Assembly (NCBI RefSeq): GCF_000178155.2
Contig: NZ_ADKM02000030.1
Span: 1-41,349 of the forward strand
DNA from: Hominimerdicola alba 8
GTDB lineage: Bacteria > Bacillota > Clostridia > Oscillospirales > Ruminococcaceae
DNA: 41,349 nt
Reading direction: 5' to 3'
The translations under genes and the position numbers were made by a program. Each line of letters opens with the position of its first letter. Position 1 is the first letter of the stretch. A model generated the notes under the pieces. The model saw only the letters and a program-made list of their open reading frames with translations, did not search any database and was not told where the DNA came from. Positions 7,107-38,385 of this stretch are shown one piece after another.

Positions 7107-7246
7107 TGTCAAACCACCCCCTTTAAAGACAGCGTTCACGGGGGAGTGCCGCCGTCTTTTTTCTGGTTTTCTATAAGTAATACGCCCCACAAGGTCATAT
7201 CCTTGCAGGATAAAAAATTTTTTTTTGAGATTTTTTAGACAAAAAT

Positions 7247-7405
7247 ATGACTATCCCTTTAGCACACTGGCTGAAAATGCGGTAAACAAAAGGATAATTG
7301 ATCGCAGGATATCTTTCCCCCGCCTGCGGCGGGGGAAAGATATCCGCCAACCACTTTAAGTTCTGCTAGATCGCTGTTTTTTGTGGTGTGTCAGCGGGAT
7401 AACCA
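7247..7405 (+). mobile_element. Miniature inverted-repeat element, copy 1 (with palindromic insert)
   Basis: Starts ATGACTATCCCTTTAGCACA and ends GGTGTGTCAGCGGGATAACCA; the ends are imperfect inverted repeats. It matches the copy at 13365-13489 along its length apart from an extra GC-rich perfect palindrome at 7307-7345. No clear target-site repeat is seen. There is no coding capacity. It lies between the sigma operon and rnfD. Confidence 0.75.
7307..7345. repeat. Perfect 18-bp-arm GC-rich palindrome inside element copy 1
   Basis: Two 18-bp arms (7307-7324, 7328-7345) flank a TGC loop. The core CCCCCGCC-TGC-GGCGGGGG recurs at 38201-38235 with different outer arm bases (TTT/AAA here, GTT/AAC there). 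The 13365-13489 copy lacks it, so it is a nested insertion. Confidence 0.85.
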
Positions 7406-7493
7406 TAATTTAAAAAGTTGGATCGCTATAGTGTTATATCGGAACTAAAGATAACCTCAACAAAATGTTTCCTTGTCATACAGCACTTTGTAG

Positions 7494-12014: not shown

Positions 12015-12069
12015 GTGGGTCACCTCTTTTTTATGCAGTCAGATATCTTTTGTATACTATATATAATAC

Positions 12070-12128
12070 GTGACTATCCATTCAGCACACCATCTGAAAA
12101 TGTTATGCTAAACAGTATGATCGGGCGC
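12070..12128 (+). mobile_element. Degenerate left part of the miniature element
   Basis: GTGACTATCC, CAGCACACCA and CTGAAAATG match the first about 60 bp of the element at 13365 with scattered differences. The right end is not recognisable. It is an older copy lying just before the intact copy at 12203. Confidence 0.55.
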
Positions 12129-12202
12129 TGCATATATTCACCGTCTTAACGGAGATCAAATTTGTCATCGTTACGCTTATGCGTATCTCTGCATTTTCTA
12201 AT

Positions 12203-12314
12203 ATGACTATTCCTTTAGTACACCAACTAAAAATGCGGTAAACAAAAGGATATACGCCAAAAAACTTAAGTTATGTATAGCCGCTGTTTTTGTGGTGTGT
12301 CAGCGGGACAACCA
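12203..12314 (+). mobile_element. Miniature inverted-repeat element, copy 2
   Basis: 112 bp, from ATGACTATTCCTTTAGTACA to GCGGGACAACCA. It is flanked by an 11-bp direct repeat CATTTTCTAAT (12192-12202 and 12315-12325), which fits a target-site duplication. It is shorter than the 13365 copy by a block in the middle. It lies downstream of the XRE gene. Confidence 0.8.
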
Positions 12315-12368
12315 CATTTTCTAATGATCGAATTCCGACCACCCGATCATGCAAGGCTTGAAATATCT

Positions 12369-13271: not shown

Positions 13272-13739
13272 ATGAGCGCAAAAGAAGTTTTTATCGGAAG
13301 ATCGTTATACCAAATGCCCGACAGTGTACCGAATGAGCAGGGTGACATGGTACTTTTAAAAATATGACTATCCCTTTAGCACACCAGCTGAAAATGCTGT
13401 AAACAAAAGGATAATTGAGCGCCCATACGCCAACCACCTTAAGTTCTGTAAAACCGCCGTTTTTGTGGTGTGTCAGCGGGATAACCACGTTTAAAAATAA
13501 GGTGTTTCGGTCCGCCGGAAACAGAGGATCGGGGCATAGATGCCGACGGCAGGTTCTACGAGGAATACTGCCGGTGTGAAGATGATCTATACAAAGACGA
13601 AAATTGCCGCAAATATATCACAAAAGAAGAGATGGCAGAAAGAATAAGAAGCGTGCAGGTAATGTTTGAAAGATCGGGTCGATCCGAATGGGCTGAGATC
13701 TATAAAAAATTACTTTACGAGCTTAATATGCGGGAATAA
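13272..13739 (+). pseudogene. Small gene of unknown function split by a miniature element
   Basis: The start at 13272 has GAGGGGG at 4 nt. Reading runs 31 codons (MSAKEVFIGRSLYQMPDSVP...) and stops at the TGA formed by the first bases of the element (13365-13367). After the element the frame resumes and runs to TAA at 13737-13739 (...YITKEEMAERIRSVQVMF... ending YELNMRE). Deleting the element plus one copy of the flanking 10-bp repeat (13365-13499, 135 bp) joins VLLKI to RCFGPP in one frame, giving 110 aa, charged and helical towards the end with four Cys. I do not recognise the family. Confidence 0.85.
13365..13489 (+). mobile_element. Miniature inverted-repeat element, copy 3, inserted in a gene
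   Basis: 125 bp, starting TGACTATCCCTTTAGCACAC and ending GTGTCAGCGGGATAACCACG. The ends are imperfect inverted repeats. The 10-bp direct repeat TTTAAAAATA flanks it exactly (13355-13364 and 13490-13499). It contains no plausible gene and interrupts a reading frame. The size, ends, target duplication and absence of a transposase gene are those of a non-autonomous element (MITE). Confidence 0.9.
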
Positions 13740-38250: not shown

Positions 38251-38314
38251 TTGAAATAAAGAAGCGCCGCACTTCCCTTTAAGAATAGTATCACCATCTT
38301 TTGCAGGGATATAC

Positions 38315-38374
38315 AACGCTCAATTATCCTTTTGTTCACCGCTTTTTTAGTTGGTGTGCTAAAGGGATAGTCAC
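38315..38374 (-). mobile_element. Half copy of the miniature element, reverse orientation
   Basis: Read on the minus strand it begins GTGACTATCCCTTTAGCACA and continues through GAACAAAAGGATAATTGAGC as in the other copies, then diverges. The other end is not found. It lies between eno and the unknown paralogue pair. Confidence 0.65.
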
Positions 38375-38385
38375 ATAAATTTTTT

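Follow-up and report, generated by a model that had tools for sequence, protein, structure and literature searches.

The window, by which we mean the whole stretch of 41,349 nucleotides of DNA that was analysed, carries at positions 13272-13739 of its forward strand a small gene in two pieces. The 5' piece (13272..13367, + strand) runs for 31 codons from an ATG at 13272 to a TGA at 13365 that already lies inside an inserted element, and the 3' piece (13498..13739, + strand) is recognised from an intact homologue in a relative (L079:2784-3116); read straight through, the frame gives MSAKEV...VLLKI, then seven in-frame stops within the element, then RCFGPP...MRE. As the original prediction had it, TTTAAAAATA can be read directly at 13355-13364 and again at 13490-13499, and a repeat search returns a 13-nt direct repeat at this site with a spacing of 135. 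Removal of 135 bp leaves a single 110-codon frame ending at 13739, just as had been predicted for the deletion of the element with one of its repeats. The insertion lies at codons 28-31 of the gene and adds 127 + 8 = 135 bp, or exactly 45 codons, the same total as the 125 + 10 first proposed. Within it we place a putative IS1595-type miniature element of 127 bp (13363..13489, + strand), beginning in T, ending in G and lacking a transposase, a delimitation drawn from the flanks of 61 elements and from a related insertion sequence (IS); the element is absent from L079. It stands between two copies of a target-site duplication, TTTAAAAA, on the left at 13355..13362 and on the right at 13490..13497 (both + strand), placed by repeat search, empty site and flank analysis. 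At 127 bp it is too short for a transposase gene, and its own two ends, TATGACTATCCCTTTAGCACACCA at 13363..13386 (+ strand) and, read inwards, CGTGGTTATCCCGCTGACACACCA at 13466..13489 (- strand), are imperfect inverted repeats identical at 16 of 24 positions. The product of the split gene is weakly zinc-ribbon-like (Zn_ribbon_2 scores of 17 and 18.5 bits, where the Pfam cut-off is 22.5), and its intact homologue matched no NCBIfam family. Because the inserted 135 bp carries seven in-frame stops, the gene is very probably dead, a loss that was apparently tolerated.

That the restored frame is not a product of chance follows from a relative in which the gene is unbroken. Scanning genome contigs with the joined protein, among 102 pattern-matching stretches, yielded one such relative, the Ruminococcus MAG RUG10798 (NZ_CACWPP010000181.1, L079), where the same gene is an uninterrupted ORF of 110 aa whose protein is 89% identical and whose DNA reads ...GGTACT TTTAAAAAT GAGG..., with the repeat present once and the element absent. 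The genes on either side stay in place there, a phosphatase-like gene downstream and a regulator-like gene upstream (both named by eye). This empty site upholds the central claim of the original prediction, that transposition of a miniature element, with duplication of its target, broke up a genuine gene. Had the 3' piece been a self-standing gene with a separate start codon, the restoration of the frame would have been coincidental; however, the single uninterrupted 110-codon gene with its one TTTAAAAAT already refutes this, the first in-frame start codon after the element, at 13632, leaves 35 aa, so that the 3' piece does not obviously stand as a separate gene, and nothing was found in favour of an idea to which we give next to no weight. 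The split gene occurs in 7 of the 29 genomes of the genus, its own included, and the match in one of them (G024:C181) is the same protein as that of L079. To five more distant homologues in the genus (43-47% identity) the match is continuous, the frame being open without the insertion in four of these further genomes and holding one TAG in the fifth (G005). Downstream of the gene, RUG10798 also contains two additional stretches (L079:3162-3377) that are absent from the window and carry a hairpin repeat, CCCAATTTGGTTGTGTATTGTTCCCCC..., part of which recurs in the window near 38,300. Upstream, window positions 12029-12351, which hold a 115-bp and a truncated copy of the miniature element beside the regulator-like gene, cannot be aligned to the matching stretch of RUG10798.

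The exact boundaries were settled by the family rather than by the single copy. In a sample of twelve contigs of the same genome plus the window (1.93 of 4.05 Mb) we counted 111 left and 126 right ends, 12 of the left ends being without a right end within 6 kb. Identical 9-mers stood at both flanks in 43 of the 91 elements that were shorter than 300 bp and had both flanks available, whereas 100 random re-pairings averaged 0.61 such cases and never exceeded 3. Among the 97 elements shorter than 2.5 kb identical 8-mers were found in 52, with at least seven of eight positions matching in 61 and fewer in 36. The base to the left of the search pattern, which the pattern itself did not include, was T in all 61 elements with such matching flanks; the base to the right of the right-hand repeat was T in 53, A in 7 and C in 1, and its left-hand counterpart was A in 46, T in 13 and G in 2. 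A duplication of 9 bp or of 10, which the identical 9-mers had suggested, is refuted by the ninth base itself: it differs between the flanks in 8 of the 61 elements, and since the left one is T in every case, that base is part of the element, which leaves a duplication of 8 bp within a symmetric target of the form A-W8-T. The longer lengths are also contradicted by the related IS, whose ends show C or T (rarely another base) outside the 8-mers. In the window copy the ninth base thus matches because the T of the element coincides with a T in the target, and the tenth, A, probably matches by chance, the empty site having G. The original prediction was therefore right that an element and a duplication are present, but its 125 bp at 13365-13489 becomes 127 bp from T13363 to G13489, and its duplication of about 10 bp shortens, on the evidence of the ninth base and the related IS, to the 8 bp of TTTAAAAA.

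Members of the family are numerous. With up to two mismatches, a 17-mer from the left end matched 179 times in the genome of the window and its reversed control not at all; a tighter end pattern gave 159 matches in this genome, 302 in G024, 61 in G023 (not a count of miniature elements, most of those listed being the IS-type end) and none in 19 of the 29 genomes of the genus, the control again finding nothing anywhere. Used as a DNA query the element matched 9 of 61 genomes, its own included and all within the genus; 44 matches fell in its own genome, where 40 of 238 first-look candidates were scored. Lengths among the 92 elements below 300 bp, leaving out the terminal T, gather at 125-126 bp (25 elements) and 159-166 bp (36). 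Family searches of the window found three further members: a copy of 115 bp at 12202..12316 (+ strand), flanked by TTTTCTAA on flank analysis; a longer form with a central palindrome and unmatched flanks at 7246..7407 (+ strand); and a left end only at 38317..38376 (- strand). The near-perfect palindrome of the longer form, CCCCCGCC...GGCGGGGG (window 7246-7407; L026, L034, L051), is absent from the 127-bp form, and related palindromes in other subtypes suggest an origin of the short form through loss of the palindrome. Several members (L019, L020, L052) have a second small repeat with CTATAGCAATCC-type ends nested within them, and a mosaic at L054 (G000:C15), its left half of one subtype and its right half of another, suggests recombination between family members. 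Short, with inverted ends, a duplicated target, many copies and ends matching those of an autonomous element, the 127-bp element is by these tested features a miniature inverted-repeat transposable element (MITE).

Genes are not its usual landing place. After removal of the element, ORFs of 100 aa or more enclose 8 of the 61 sites, one of them the window's, compared with 33.5% of 600 AT-only decamers (p=0.0008) and 83.5% of 600 random sites. This is a crude test, with a homology check on the window site alone among the eight. Copies that split genes are a minority of the family. Such a distribution, with most sampled copies outside long ORFs, might be read as the mark of a functional RNA or regulatory repeat, kept for its role whatever its mobile origin, and the element does fold better than shuffled sequences as RNA (z -3.7 on the minus strand, z -2.6 on the plus strand; as DNA only z -1.15). 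Yet any MITE will fold through its inverted terminal repeats, selection is expected to keep copies out of genes, no Rfam family matched in the window at gathering scores, the copy in the window breaks a gene, and the duplicated targets and empty site show transposition, all of which leaves retention for function very improbable beside simple mobility.

The likely source of that mobility is an IS that measures about 1,023 bp and is present in intact form in another genome of the genus (G023), with ends such as CATGGTTATCCCTTTAACACACCA and TATGGTTATCCCCTTAACACACCA. By its profile matches (NF033547 at 162.9 bits against a cut-off of 75; PF12762 at 78 against 27; PF12760 at 41.4 against 25.4) its predicted protein is an IS1595-family DDE transposase with a zinc ribbon. 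Perfect 8-bp duplications flank 16 of its 18 distinct copies in G023, none of 3 in G005 and not the single copy in G027; its near-fixed terminal bases in G023 stand outside these 8-bp repeats, and at the outer flanks 20 of all 22 copies have A and 20 have T, the same A-W8-T target as that of the MITE. The ends of the two are identical at 19-20 of 24 positions at each end, the left one at 20/24 to either end of the IS and the right one at 19-20/24. IS and MITE are thus alike in ends, duplication length and target, and differ in that the IS carries a transposase gene and in their interiors, which beyond about 24 bp do not look, by eye, like those of an internally deleted copy. Transposase matches occur in 7 of the 10 genomes of the genus with the end motif versus 2 of the 19 without it (Fisher p=0.002), a co-occurrence that is partly circular, as IS copies carry the motif, and uncorrected for kinship.

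A transposase of the PF01609 type was also considered as the source, and rejected. It has 24 matches in six of seven genomes, and at no locus do such ends frame the gene: when the 24 loci were scanned for ends, L192 showed a pair belonging to a MITE next to the gene, three loci gave isolated weak matches, and L198 and L200 both revealed the same complete IS1595 copy within a split PF01609 gene, which is what led to IS1595. PF01610 has 8 listed matches in three of seven genomes, their ends lying outside the scan. Seven end-framed units of 611-4,859 bp occur in the sampled contigs of the window's own genome, and the five inspected by eye showed no transposase.

Within its own draft assembly of 136 contigs no intact IS1595 transposase gene was found; there are four partial matches, all on contig C113, although an intact copy of the IS may simply be unassembled. 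On that contig an istA/istB-like pair, which we take to be IS21-like, separates two parts of a transposase gene, codons 1-128 and about 127-291 (L263:5062-7370), and another IS1595 transposase has had its N-terminus replaced by a foreign stretch, presumably IS66 accessory-protein-like, in a fused open frame of 290 aa (L263:1388-2260). G024, with the most ends (302), has partial transposase matches only, and no transposase was matched in either G002 (11 ends) or G020 (33 ends). The lack of an intact transposase gene in the own assembly, the two genomes with ends and no such match, and an interior that by eye is unlike the IS are what one would expect had a different, unseen transposase mobilised the element, its likeness to IS1595-type ends then reflecting old shared ancestry or convergence. 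Against this stand the equal duplication length, the common A-W8-T target and the 19-20/24 identity of the ends, as well as the scan of the 24 PF01609 loci, where no such ends frame a gene and the only full pairs are the neighbouring MITE and the internal IS1595 copy, and we consider a separate transposase distinctly unlikely. From sequence comparison the 127-bp element is very likely a non-autonomous MITE of an IS1595-family IS, mobilised in trans by an IS1595-type transposase, and we infer that the transposase of this IS moved it. Acting in trans, such an enzyme would bind the imperfect 24-bp terminal repeats and direct the element to an AT-rich 10-bp target of the form A-W8-T, where a staggered cut would yield the 8-bp duplication; here the insertion fell within codons 28-31 of the small gene and added 135 bp.

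Larger units are also bounded by these ends. One of 1,174 bp on contig C119 of the same genome (G000:C119:91243-92416; L265:1744-2917) consists of a MITE left end, a gene for a membrane-protein-like product of 240 aa and, at its right, a full MITE; a single 8-bp duplication, TTTTTTAT, encloses the whole, which is possibly a mobile insertion cassette; its 240-aa passenger protein had no Pfam or NCBIfam match over cut-off. It could be that MITE ends serve the genus as a modular gene-capture system, in which two copies frame host DNA and move with it as a unit under an IS1595 transposase supplied in trans, C119 being one example. Seven other genomes have homologues of the passenger, at 71-83% over 538-691 bp, and at the five of these seven loci that were scanned for ends none is framed as the C119 copy is, which argues against a genus-wide system; at one of them two ends sit near each other on a single side, and that of G023 adjoins an IS1595 copy. 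We hold gene capture on this scale to be a tentative reading, rather less probable than its alternative.

Two observations bear on the age of the insertion. An identical copy of the element (127/127) lies at G000:C46:64391-64517, and the insertion is absent from RUG10798, so that it most simply followed the split from that relative. To this extent the claim that the insertion is recent stands, but the reason first given, that the rest of the frame is intact, does not carry it: were 15 unselected substitutions all placed in this copy, 0.9 new stops would be expected and the probability of none is 0.39, so the open remaining frame is weak evidence of recency. Between the split gene and its RUG10798 counterpart there are 13 nonsynonymous and 2 synonymous differences, against 9 and 18 in the neighbouring phosphatase-like gene (Fisher p=0.0012). 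W56 and D104, invariant in five aligned intact homologues (four distant ones and L079), are R and Y in the window copy, and at sites 39, 57, 81 and 91 the window copy agrees with at least one distant homologue where RUG10798 does not, so not all of the changes occurred in the window copy. The substitutions suggest relaxed constraint, fitting a gene that has lost its function, and a fast-evolving gene would look similar.

Comparable systems have been described. The MITE of the archaeon Haloquadratum walsbyi listed in Table 4 of PMC3852290, assigned to the IS1595 family (putative IS ISHwa6), is 165 bp long with 7 copies, terminal repeats (IR) of 25 and direct repeats (DR) of 8; it resembles the present element in being short and transposase-less with terminal repeats of about 25 bp and 8-bp direct repeats, and differs in its archaeal host and few copies, the two being likened by description and not by sequence. 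MTnSag1 and tISCpe8, as presented in PMC5704250, are mobilisable elements with an IS1595-type transposase, 25-bp terminal repeats, 8-bp duplications and AT-rich targets, all points of likeness, but they are larger (1.7-2.0 kb) and encode both a transposase and a resistance gene themselves. The mobile insertion cassettes of PMC3281130 recall the C119 composite, with its MITE ends, passenger gene and one outer duplication, unlike the element of the window, which has no passenger. No publication naming this Ruminococcus family was found among titles and abstract openings, in a search outside which most subscription journals lie. The family is new, and the mechanism is an established one, an IS1595-type MITE with 8-bp repeats having already been published (PMC3852290).

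Where such repeats go unannotated, the pieces of a broken gene may pass for separate small genes, and the repeats themselves may break draft assemblies. What emerges is an abundant repeat family, with 159 end matches in its own genome and 302 in G024, tied to a transposase family. The split gene is an ordinary consequence of its movement, unusually well documented thanks to the empty site, and with filled and empty sites both in hand it offers a clean, polarised example of gene loss by a putative IS1595-type MITE in a Ruminococcus-like genome.
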